DNA of 64,000 bases from Paenarthrobacter sp. GOM3. Its GTDB lineage: Bacteria > Actinomycetota > Actinomycetes > Actinomycetales > Micrococcaceae. The notes beneath the pieces were generated by a model, which was given only the letters and a program-made list of their open reading frames with translations, searched no databases and was not told the origin of the DNA. Of this stretch, positions 25,838 to 28,754 are shown piece by piece (positions within the stretch are counted from its first letter, which is position 1; each line of letters begins with the position of its first letter). Both the position numbers and the translations under genes were made by a program. Location of the stretch: positions 3,844,001-3,908,000 of the forward strand of contig NZ_CP136562.1 in assembly GCF_018215265.2 (NCBI RefSeq), written 5' to 3'.

Positions 25838-26428
25838 GTGCCAAAGATTGTGGACCACGATCAACGACGCCTTGAACTGGTGGACGCAACCTGGCGCATC
25901 ATCGCGAGGCTGGGCATGGAAGGCGCCACCATGCGCGAAATCGCCGAGGAAGCAGGCTTCGCCAACGGCGCCCTCAAGCCCTACTTCCCCACCAAGGACA
26001 TGCTGCTGACGTCGGCGTTCGGGCACGTTTTCAACCGCACCAACCAGCGCATTGCCTCGATGACCGAAGGGCTGGCCGGAGTAGCGGCGCTCCGTGCGTT
26101 CTGCGCCGAGGTACTGCCGCTGGATGAAGAACGCGTCAATGAAGCCCGGATCGTGATCCCGTTCTGGCAAAAAGCGCTCAACGATCCTGACATGGCAACC
26201 CTGCACAGCGAGTCCATGAACCAGTGGCACACCACCATCACGGCGCATGCCGCAGCAGCCCGCGCGGCCGGTGAGATCAGCACCCCGATCGGGGACGCCG
26301 CCGTCGCCGACCACCTGCTCAACATGATGCTCGGCGCTCAGATCGTGGCCGCACTATCCCCCAACGAACACTTTTCGCAGGACCTTGCCAGGCAGTTGGA
26401 TAACTACCTGACGCTGCTGGCTGGTTGA
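25838..26428 (+). CDS. TetR/AcrR family regulator, probable amine oxidase repressor
   Basis: A 196-residue protein. The N-terminal helix-turn-helix is in TMREIAEEAGFANGALKPYFPTKDMLL. The C-terminal domain, with ESMNQWHTTITAHAAAARAAGEI, resembles the BetI-type C-terminal group. GTG at 25838 has GGGAG ten bases upstream. It is divergent from the amine oxidase gene, and the TTATTTTCTA palindrome lies between them. The ligand is probably an amine, its aldehyde product or a related metabolite; this is inferred from position. Confidence 0.88.
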   Translation: MPKIVDHDQRRLELVDATWRIIARLGMEGATMREIAEEAGFANGALKPYFPTKDMLLTSAFGHVFNRTNQRIASMTEGLAGVAALRAFCAEVLPLDEERVNEARIVIPFWQKALNDPDMATLHSESMNQWHTTITAHAAAARAAGEISTPIGDAAVADHLLNMMLGAQIVAALSPNEHFSQDLARQLDNYLTLLAG

Positions 26429-26484: not shown

Positions 26485-26524
26485 CATTACACATTAGTAG
26501 CGAAACCGATACCATTGTGTAATG
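26485..26524 (+). promoter_or_regulatory. Inverted-repeat operator over a leaderless promoter for the HTH/NTase pair
   Basis: CATTACACA (26485-26493) and TGTGTAATG (26516-26524) are exact inverted repeats. The right arm contains the ATG start at 26522. TACCAT at 26510-26515 is a -10 hexamer placed six bases before the ATG, and TTACAC at 26487-26492 inside the left arm is a weak -35 at a 17-base spacing. A bound regulator would therefore cover both promoter ends, the layout expected for toxin-antitoxin autoregulation. Confidence 0.65.
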
Positions 26525-27208
26525 GTACTGAGCATCCCAGAACTGGCGAGGCGCCTCCACGTCAACGAAAGTCGAGCGCGCCACCTCGTTCAATCCGGAC
26601 GTATCCGAGGGCTACGGGTGGGTGGACGCTGGATTGTTGAGGAAGTCGATGCTTCCCAATACCTGCCTGGCCGGCCTGCGGGACGCCCCCTGTCCGAACG
26701 CAGCGCCTGGCAACTCATGGCATGCTTCTGGGACGACAGCCAGAGCCGCCCCCTCCCGGAGTACTTGGCACCCTCACCCGTAGAACAGCACCGGTTGAAG
26801 GAACGCATCAGCCGACTGAGGGACTCCCCCGCTTCGCTGGAACTCCTGGCGGCATGGTTGGCTAATCGGGCCGAAAAGCTCCAGTTCTCTTCCAGCCCGG
26901 CCGACCTTGCCGAGCTTCGCGAGGACAAACGGATTCACCTTTCCGGAGTCTCGCACCCGTGGTCTGGGCTGCTGGCCAATTCGGAGCTGGAGGCCTACGT
27001 GCAACGCGACGAACTTGAGGACATCGTCAAAGACTGGTTCCTGGTTGAGCCGTCCCCCGGCAAGAGACCCAATGTCGTGCTGCGGGCCGCCGAACGAATC
27101 CCGGATGAGCTCCCACCACTTGCGGTCGCGGTGGACTTGGCCGAACGGCAGGGTGCCCGGGAACAGCAAGCCGCACGCGAAATCCTCAGGACAATCCATG
27201 CCCATTGA
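26522..27208 (+). CDS. Helix-turn-helix protein, putative antitoxin of an AbiE-like pair
   Basis: A 228-residue protein. Residues 1-48 are an excisionase/MerR-type HTH (LSIPELARRLHVNESRARHLVQSGRI, then a wing GLRVGGRWIVEE). The C-terminal half has WFLVEPSPGKRPNVVLRAAE and VAVDLAERQGAREQQAAREIL. This last pattern, a strand with valines, then DLAE followed by several alanine/arginine residues, is also seen at the end of AbiEi-type antitoxins. Start is the ATG at 26522 within an inverted repeat and without a Shine-Dalgarno. It overlaps the next gene by 11 bases, so the two are coupled. Calling it an antitoxin is inference. Confidence 0.75.
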   Translation: MVLSIPELARRLHVNESRARHLVQSGRIRGLRVGGRWIVEEVDASQYLPGRPAGRPLSERSAWQLMACFWDDSQSRPLPEYLAPSPVEQHRLKERISRLRDSPASLELLAAWLANRAEKLQFSSSPADLAELREDKRIHLSGVSHPWSGLLANSELEAYVQRDELEDIVKDWFLVEPSPGKRPNVVLRAAERIPDELPPLAVAVDLAERQGAREQQAAREILRTIHAH

Positions 27209-27926
27209 ACTTCCGGCAATGCCCCGCGAACAACAGGAAGCTTGGCAAGCGGTCTTTGAAATACATAGCGCGATGCCCCAAGGATGGGTTCTGGTAGGCG
27301 GCCAAGCCGTTTTCCTGCACGCTGTCGAGCGAGGTGCTCCGGCCGTGCGGGCTACTAAGGACGCGGACGTGGCACTCGACATCCGGGCATTCCCAACGAT
27401 GCTTCACGACTTCACGGAACTGCTGGTGCATCTCGGCTTCGAATCCCAAGGCGAATCCCTCGAGGGGTACCAACATCGATGGAAACGCGGAGATGCGGTG
27501 GTGGATGTCCTGATTCCTCGACACCTGGGGGAACGGGCGGAGAAGAGACGCGGAGTTACGGGTGGAACCACCATTGCTGCGCCGGCCAGCCAGCAAGCGC
27601 TTGACCGCTCCGAGACCGTCGAGGTCCTGGCAGGATTTGTGTCCGGCAGCGTCATCCGGCCCACCATCCTGGGCAGCCTGATAGGCAAAGCGGGAGCCCT
27701 GACCATCGTCAATGACCCCCTCTGGCGACGGCACGTAGATGATTTCCTGACCTTGGCCTCTGTTGTGCGCGCCTCGGACCTTCGCGGTATCACCTACAAA
27801 CCTGCTGAACAGAACCATCTGGCGAACATGCTGGGCCGTCTTACCAATGAACCAGAGCTCATGGATCAGGTGCCGGAATGTGCCGAGGGCGTGGAACGTC
27901 TTCGTCTCTCGCTGAATTGGCTTTAG
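27198..27926 (+). CDS. Nucleotidyltransferase-fold protein, putative AbiEii-like toxin
   Basis: A 242-residue protein with a minimal nucleotidyltransferase core: the GG motif in WVLVGGQAVFLHA (about residues 31-40), a metal-binding DxD in RATKDADVALDI, and a third aspartate in GDAVVDVLIP. The helical C-terminal half includes IGKAGALTIVNDPLWRRHVDDFLTLA. AbiEii/MenT-type toxins use this fold to transfer nucleotides to RNA or tRNA. The motifs here are intact. ATG at 27198 overlaps the HTH gene. The stop overlaps that of the convergent LysE gene by four bases. Toxin activity is not proven by sequence. Confidence 0.75.
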   Translation: MPIELPAMPREQQEAWQAVFEIHSAMPQGWVLVGGQAVFLHAVERGAPAVRATKDADVALDIRAFPTMLHDFTELLVHLGFESQGESLEGYQHRWKRGDAVVDVLIPRHLGERAEKRRGVTGGTTIAAPASQQALDRSETVEVLAGFVSGSVIRPTILGSLIGKAGALTIVNDPLWRRHVDDFLTLASVVRASDLRGITYKPAEQNHLANMLGRLTNEPELMDQVPECAEGVERLRLSLNWL

Positions 27927-28576
27927 CTCGTAGCCCCCGACGCCACCACACCGACGCCCAGCCCGGCGATCACGCCGCTACTGACACGCTCGACGGCGGT
28001 ACTCACCTTGGGGCGCTTGAGCCACCGCATCGCCTTGAACGCAACCACCGCGATCATCGAGAGATACGCGAAGGCGATGACGGCCACCACCACACCCAGA
28101 ACCAGGGAAGTGCCCATGGTGTCGCCGCCGTGCGGGATGAACTGCGGGACCACGGCCAAATAGAAGAGCCCAACCTTGGGGTTGAGCAGCGTTGACAGCG
28201 CCCCGGCGCCCAAAGCGGACAGCCGGCTGTAAGGGAGGGGCTCATTCTCCGCTGCCCCGTCCACCGTCGGGGCATTGGCGGCCTTCGCGGCCTTCCGGGA
28301 CTTGATGAACGACGACACTCCCAGGTAAAGCAAGTACAAACCGCCCGCGATCTTGAGCCAACGGAAGAGTTCGGCTGACTGCTCCAGGAGCGCGGCAAGC
28401 CCCACGCCCACCAGCGCTGCCCAGACAATCGCGCCAGCCGCCGAACCAGCGGCAGCGGCAATCCCCGCGCTGGGTCGGTTCAAGGCAATCCTGAGCACCA
28501 GGAACGTGTCCGGCCCCGGGGTTACGGAGAGAACCAGGCAGAGACCGGCGAAAGCAGCGAGGGAAGCGAGAGTCAC
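27923..28576 (-). CDS. LysE/RhtB family exporter
   Basis: A 217-residue amino acid exporter-type membrane protein with about six TM helices. The N-terminal signature SVTPGPDTFLVLR is the RhtB/LysE family motif; another conserved stretch is LLNPKVGLFYLAVVPQFI, followed by the C-terminal helices. The GTG at 28576 gives a family-length protein and is preceded by GACAAT seven bases away, so it may be leaderless; a GTG at 28618 in the same frame is a longer alternative. A hydrophilic loop (KSRKAAKAANAPT) lies mid-protein. Substrate unknown. Confidence 0.88.
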   Translation of the reverse strand: MTLASLAAFAGLCLVLSVTPGPDTFLVLRIALNRPSAGIAAAAGSAAGAIVWAALVGVGLAALLEQSAELFRWLKIAGGLYLLYLGVSSFIKSRKAAKAANAPTVDGAAENEPLPYSRLSALGAGALSTLLNPKVGLFYLAVVPQFIPHGGDTMGTSLVLGVVVAVIAFAYLSMIAVVAFKAMRWLKRPKVSTAVERVSSGVIAGLGVGVVASGATS

Positions 28577-28754
28577 AAGACTGATTGTCGGGCATGACGG
28601 GTGGGTTGCGAAAGCCACCCGAACATAAAGCGTTCACTTCCCGTCAAGGGGTGTTCGTGCATAGACAAGGCTCTTCCCCGTGACGCCGACCACACTGGAA
28701 ACATCGCCGCGCGCCTTACTGGCCGCCAAGACTTACTACCCGAGCGGAGTACCA

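Follow-up and report, generated by a model that had tools for sequence, protein, structure and literature searches.

A probable self-repressing toxin-antitoxin module with a MenT-type nucleotidyltransferase in Paenarthrobacter sp. GOM3

Here, we propose that two overlapping genes of Paenarthrobacter sp. GOM3, found in a 64,000-nucleotide stretch of contig NZ_CP136562.1 (positions 3,844,001 to 3,908,000; hereafter the window), probably form a self-repressing toxin-antitoxin module, in which gene 2 would encode a MenT-type nucleotidyltransferase toxin and gene 1 an antitoxin that represses its own leaderless promoter. This is based on the pairing of the two genes, the predicted fold and motifs of the enzyme, an asymmetry in which of the two genes is found broken, and the positions of a dyad and of a TANNNT element at the promoter, all of which were computed directly. 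An earlier reading of the same stretch (the original prediction) had described two genes sharing 11 bases, and their coordinates are confirmed (Table 1).

The predicted enzyme and its partner

The predicted structure of gene 2 has the fold of a MenT-type nucleotidyltransferase. Structure prediction had been suggested as a check on the original prediction, and it gives MenT1 as the best fold match, ahead of ANT(2'')-Ia each time in two structure comparisons, with MenT1 and MenT3 ranking above enzymes of the ANT/Lnu type; identity to the MenT1 and MenT3 chains is 15-18%, among listed structural alignments that range over 14-18%. The nucleotidyltransferase core that had been called intact is so, with G34-G35, R51, T53, D55, D57, D103, K164 and D182 invariant in 23 of 23 aligned homologues. 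Matched by order and spacing, these residues give the MenT motif set (GG; R-x-S/T-x-D-x-D; D/E; K; D), for which the TglT/MenT3 positions were taken from the available text of PMC7205606.

Could gene 2 instead be a small-molecule or antibiotic nucleotidyltransferase of the ANT/Lnu type, with its own transcriptional regulator, and not a toxin? ANT(2'')-Ia is also a significant structural match to gene 2, and this favours such an enzyme. We nevertheless consider it unlikely, since MenT1 and MenT3 outrank these enzymes in the structure comparison, the R-x-T-x-D-x-D, lysine and RH..D positions are invariant as in TglT, and a regulator that outlives its enzyme in 27 of 116 loci (see below) is unexpected where the enzyme is beneficial. 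An aminoglycoside or housekeeping assignment without a paired regulator, which the original prediction had named as the outcome that would tell against it, was not what we found: the regulator is paired, and MenT1 stands above ANT(2'')-Ia.

Gene 2 is predicted to work like the MenT and AbiEii toxins, yet it is not a member of the Pfam AbiEii family (PF08843). Profile searches, likewise suggested as a check, gave no AbiEi model for gene 1 and no match of the gene 2 protein to PF08843 at E ≤ 1, and with regard to phage defence PADLOC gave only weak AbiEii matches (E 0.026-0.028); PF08843 is also without a match in the host genome, which is one contig of 4.46 Mb. P0119, a distant relative, does pass the PF08843 cut-off. 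Comparison by hhalign with AbiEii-type enzymes of the genus gave probabilities of 71 (15 sequences, 51 columns) and 37 (6 sequences, 27 columns), and because these alignments span only the columns around the first two motifs, the link is a remote one. A search of PDB sequences with gene 2 returned nothing meaningful, and phage records gave no match. Some AbiEii-type enzymes of the genus (L210, L211, L213, L219) have as upstream neighbours short proteins unlike AbiEi, which by eye resemble ribbon-helix-helix proteins. Separately, the enzyme at locus L150 (genome G475) seems to carry a long N-terminal extension.

The original prediction had also seen an excisionase-type helix-turn-helix (HTH) in gene 1, of a kind unlike the winged AbiEi domain, and both statements hold. 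The protein matches HTH_17 in Pfam (E 4.1e-6, 27.4 bits against a cut-off of 27) and an excisionase model below threshold, and a fold search likens residues 1-52 to BldC and Xis. Among PDB sequences the HTH matches phage Gp37 (4j2n, Pukovnik Xis) at E 0.007, and fold searches of PDB and BFVD return matches to the HTH part, none at E ≤ 0.001. For the C-terminal part the same searches, which barely probe residues beyond about 54, gave no fold match and no AbiEi. Its proposed AbiEi-like segment survives as a conserved stretch (A203, D205, L206, A207, R213 and A218 are invariant in 16 of 16) but not as a mark of AbiEi kinship. Gene 1 as an AbiEi relative was rejected: no AbiEi model is among its Pfam matches, and hhalign gave a probability of 1.35 against four AbiEi-like sequences, a thin profile that replaced a first comparison whose mixed partners included proteins unlike AbiEi. 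The host genome is also without a PF09407 match. The number of gene 1 matches in the genus (146/150) is uninformative because short BldC-like proteins also match.

Gene 2 as a query matches 35 of 206 genomes of the genus at E ≤ 1e-10. Its close clade, read by hand from the table of matches, occurs in 18 of the 206, with 14 full-length and 4 split or truncated copies; one of the 14, with an internal stop (G147), was counted as broken. At E ≤ 1e-12, a wider gene 2 profile finds the family in 51 of 396 genomes of an order sample (28/109 genera) and in 17 of 396 of a phylum sample (16/236 genera). In 116 of 118 loci, duplicates counted, a frame of the HTH family precedes the enzyme gene on its strand, and at least part of the HTH gene is present in 114 of the 116 deduplicated actinobacterial loci. 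Among the 84 intact pairs, 71 overlap by 4, 8 or 11 bases, the start having been picked nearest a 4-base overlap. Plasmids carry the family as well: 32 records match gene 2, the HTH gene is directly upstream in all four inspected, and one of these four enzymes is annotated as an AbiEii/AbiGii family toxin. The two genes are thus linked, overlapping and co-travelling, as toxin-antitoxin modules in general are.

Lesions in the two genes

Loci were classed by whether a single uninterrupted frame covers the profile. Before counting, L002, L029 and L173 (other nucleotidyltransferase types) and L131, L132, L133 and L134 (too weak to judge) were dropped, and 100 nt of the enzyme gene served to collapse duplicates, so that L030 and L028 became one entry despite their differing lesions; the HTH gene of L162, uninterrupted but shorter, was set to intact by hand. 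The sample is not random, some regions having been picked to complete the genus and order match lists.

Among the 116 deduplicated loci, both genes are intact in 84, the enzyme is broken and the HTH gene intact in 27, both are partial in 2 (L144, L145), and in 3 the enzyme was scored intact without an intact HTH gene. On inspection, the last three comprise a contig edge (L095), a locus with both genes frameshifted (L081) and a locus in which no HTH gene was found (L149, genome G362), where the sole orphan enzyme gene has its catalytic lysine replaced by glutamate and ends its frame early. Were lesions or sequencing errors equally likely in the two genes, a split of 27 against 0 would arise with a probability of about 1.5e-8 by a two-sided sign test that ignores shared ancestry, and even with L081 and L149 counted as reverse cases the tally is 27 against 2. 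Two of the 27 (L050, L057) were found through the HTH search and not the enzyme search, leaving 25 without them. Lesion positions mostly differ between the broken enzyme genes, and in the close clade there is a single case (L043) of an HTH gene without an enzyme in the fetched stretch. Enzyme lost and HTH gene kept, with no plausible reverse case, is therefore the pattern expected if gene 2 is the toxin and gene 1 the antitoxin.

The same pattern bears on a reversal of roles, in which the HTH protein would be harmful and the nucleotidyltransferase its antidote. Nucleotidyltransferases can act as antitoxins, and in the HEPN/MNT systems it is the MNT enzyme that does so, according to the accessible text of PMC7641770. 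Given the 27 loci with an intact HTH gene beside a broken enzyme and the MenT-like predicted fold of gene 2, we regard this reversal as very improbable.

Promoter and dyad

What, then, might control the pair? The exact inverted repeat that the original prediction had drawn over the -35 region and the ATG is present as described (CATTACACA and TGTGTAATG). TTACAC, a 17-bp spacer, TACCAT and the ATG are spaced as in a leaderless promoter, which would place the start point on or beside the ATG. The reading of TACCAT as the -10 element agrees with the close clade, where 17 of 18 distinct upstream sequences, that of the window included, have TANNNT at exactly 6 nt ahead of the ATG and L006 has it at 7 nt. 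In the host genome the half-site pattern occurs without mismatch at this locus only; with up to 3 mismatches it has 2 and 3 matches on the two strands against 1 and 3 for the control, and two of these five matches are the halves of the dyad itself.

The weight of the dyad comes from its position in the promoter and its recurrence in relatives. Of the 18 close-clade sequences, 15 have at least 6 of 9 positions complementary between the two 9-bp places, and the window alone has all nine. In L070, a distant relative, arms of 10 bp are likewise separated by 22 nt, and the repeat ends at the ATG of that locus. Family-wide, we tested 50 clusters of gene 1 proteins (less than 50% identity) with the start codon set by homology; our claim rests on these starts, since an earlier profile took whichever start gave the strongest dyad and was thereby biased. 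In 27 of the 50 clusters, where 2.5 are expected, the strongest dyad with its centre 14-19 nt ahead of the start reaches significance at p ≤ 0.05; 22 clusters do so at p ≤ 0.01 and 12 at p ≤ 0.001. Fisher's method gives a combined p of 3e-36, an indicative figure that assumes independence, the local p values coming from overlapping windows of the same locus. In the 22 clusters at p ≤ 0.01 the centres lie at -17 (11), -18 (7), -19 (2) and -16 (2). Dyads centred at -17 score 7.64 of 18 on average, compared with an average of 4.86 (sd 0.48) across 150 offsets. The dyad sequences differ between clusters, and therefore it is the geometry and not the sequence that is conserved. TANNNT lies 5-8 nt before the start in 19 of the 50 clusters, with 0.4 expected; Shine-Dalgarno sequences precede 9 of 50 gene 1 starts and 14 of 39 gene 2 starts, counts that have no control.

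Several results weigh against our proposal, besides the match to ANT(2'')-Ia. The exact repeat is weak evidence when taken alone because comparable repeats recur by chance in the window, where exact 9-bp arms with a 22-nt gap are found at 4 centres and a dyad score of 15/20 is reached at 7 of 63,940 centres. In addition, 23 of the 50 clusters have no significant dyad at the expected place, although one of them (L098) gives 13/20 from an alternative start codon, and half-sites do not covary significantly with the HTH once overall kinship is accounted for (p 0.067). The last two results fit a toxin-antitoxin pair whose dyad is not an operator, the constraint lying instead on promoter elements and the start region, which would by chance be partly complementary (TTGACA against TGTCAT); the overlap of the left arm with the -35 element and of the right arm with the ATG also fits. 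This appears doubtful to us, as in the significant clusters the pairing reaches inward past these elements and the sequence varies while the centre stays (L116, L122, L162, L168), and TTGACA can function without pairing to a start codon.

Some relatives (L003, L004, L005, L012, L062) have a second copy of the operator motif upstream of gene 1, which is absent from the window; the available text on the Rv2827c promoter likewise describes two sets of inverted repeats (PMC7319586).

Proposed mechanism, known systems and genomic setting

With gene 2 taken as the toxin and gene 1 as its autorepressing antitoxin, how might the module work? By analogy with MenT toxins, the gene 2 enzyme would add nucleotides to tRNA 3' ends and so halt translation. 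The N-terminal BldC/Xis-type HTH of gene 1, probably as a dimer, would bind the two half-sites of the predicted operator and mask the -35 element, the -10 element and the start of its own leaderless transcript, while the C-terminal part would neutralise the toxin, either by sequestration or by inducing a modification at T53. Neutralisation of the phosphorylation type may proceed via T53, and sequestration is equally likely. The toxicity of gene 2, its tRNA target, DNA binding by gene 1 and the mode of neutralisation are our inferences.

The pair had been likened to AbiE and MenAT. The likeness stands for the MenT-type enzyme, the paired HTH gene, the lesion pattern and the dyad at a conserved promoter place, but not for an AbiEi-like C-terminal domain. 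MenT1 and MenT3/TglT (MenAT, AbiEii superfamily) share with gene 2 the predicted fold, the motif order and spacing, a Ser/Thr two residues before DxD and an upstream antitoxin gene; the low identity implies no close kinship, and gene 1 is unrelated to the AbiEi-type MenA3 and MenA4 as far as compared. AbiE (AbiEi/AbiEii, type IV) is likewise a two-gene operon whose antitoxin has an N-terminal DNA-binding domain and whose promoter has inverted repeats, going by the accessible portions of PMC3985639 and PMC7319586, but that domain is the winged AbiEi domain and not a BldC/Xis-like HTH, and the C-terminal part of gene 1 has no detected AbiEi kinship. The Rv2827c repeats lie within -1 to -131 of the start codon (PMC7319586, as available), whereas the dyad of the window includes the start codon. 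The PIN-MerR pairs also have an antitoxin with a truncated MerR-like HTH, but a PIN nuclease as toxin, as far as the text at hand states (Makarova 2009, PMC2701414). BldC and Xis are small single-domain proteins in the matched chains; gene 1 adds a part of about 170 residues and a partner enzyme.

Among the papers listed by our literature searches, in which subscription papers are thinly covered, none describes an excisionase-type HTH paired with a MenT-like toxin or, as a trait of a whole family, a dyad that extends to the start codon. Mycobacteria are known to make leaderless toxin-antitoxin transcripts, which are not new as such (PMC8485053, available text). MenA antitoxins form three independent families, two of which lead to toxin phosphorylation, in the available text of PMC11375011. 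If our proposal is correct, it adds a new antitoxin class for nucleotidyltransferase toxins, whose antitoxins are already described there as diverse, and raises the question of whether another unrelated antitoxin also acts via a conserved Ser/Thr (T53 here). With a fixed operator geometry, it would be easier to predict where the antitoxins bind and which start codons are correct throughout the family, and autoregulation of leaderless promoters would become testable in soil bacteria. More broadly, actinobacteria could carry a large unnamed class of MenT-type toxin-antitoxin systems, with a BldC/Xis-HTH antitoxin, a C-terminal part of unrecognised fold, and a composite of operator, promoter, transcription start and start codon, in which the half-sites drift around a constant geometry, the centre lying mostly 16-18 nt ahead of the start codon, so that one circuit would exist in many insulated copies; on this extension we are evenly divided.

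Table 1. Coordinates of the module, its predicted control elements and the flanking genes in the window
Feature	Position	Strand	Description
Gene 1	26522-27208	+	228 aa; N-terminal BldC/Xis-type HTH; predicted antitoxin and autorepressor
Gene 2	27198-27926	+	242 aa; predicted MenT-type nucleotidyltransferase toxin; motif residues G35, R51, T53, D55, D57, D103, K164, D182
Overlap, gene 1 end / gene 2 start	27198-27208	+	11 bases
Predicted operator, imperfect dyad	26485-26524	.	40 bp, 15/20 pairs; outer 9-bp arms exact; spans -35, -10, start point, ATG
Left arm CATTACACA	26485-26493		
Right arm TGTGTAATG	26516-26524		
-35 element TTACAC	26487-26492	+	within left arm; 17-bp spacer to -10
-10 element TACCAT (TANNNT)	26510-26515	+	6 nt ahead of ATG at 26522; leaderless geometry
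Flanking gene, TetR-like by inspection	25838-26428	+	adjoins module in close relatives; outside module
Flanking gene, LysE-like by inspection	27923-28618	-	convergent; stop overlaps gene 2 stop; outside module

In close relatives the gene pair lies between the same two flanking genes as in the window, and the named relatives with these flanks are Paenarthrobacter and Arthrobacter records. Two loci have both flanking genes and no pair: L084 is a clean empty site, and L085 (genome G008) is probably the deletion scar of a lost module, because between the flanking genes there remain, as judged by eye, a stretch resembling the end of gene 2 and a palindrome similar to the additional dyad found upstream in L004 and L062. 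In contrast, L006-L009, L066 and L067 have neither of these flanking genes in the stretches examined. From the empty sites and the varying flanks, it follows that the module behaves as a single block of about 1.5 kb in losses and probably also in gains.

Elsewhere in the host genome, beyond the window (G000:C1:3757231 region, L002), a gene for a 370-aa protein and one for a 285-aa nucleotidyltransferase of another type form a further pair, in that order. The likeness of this pair to MenAT2 is confined to the gene sizes.
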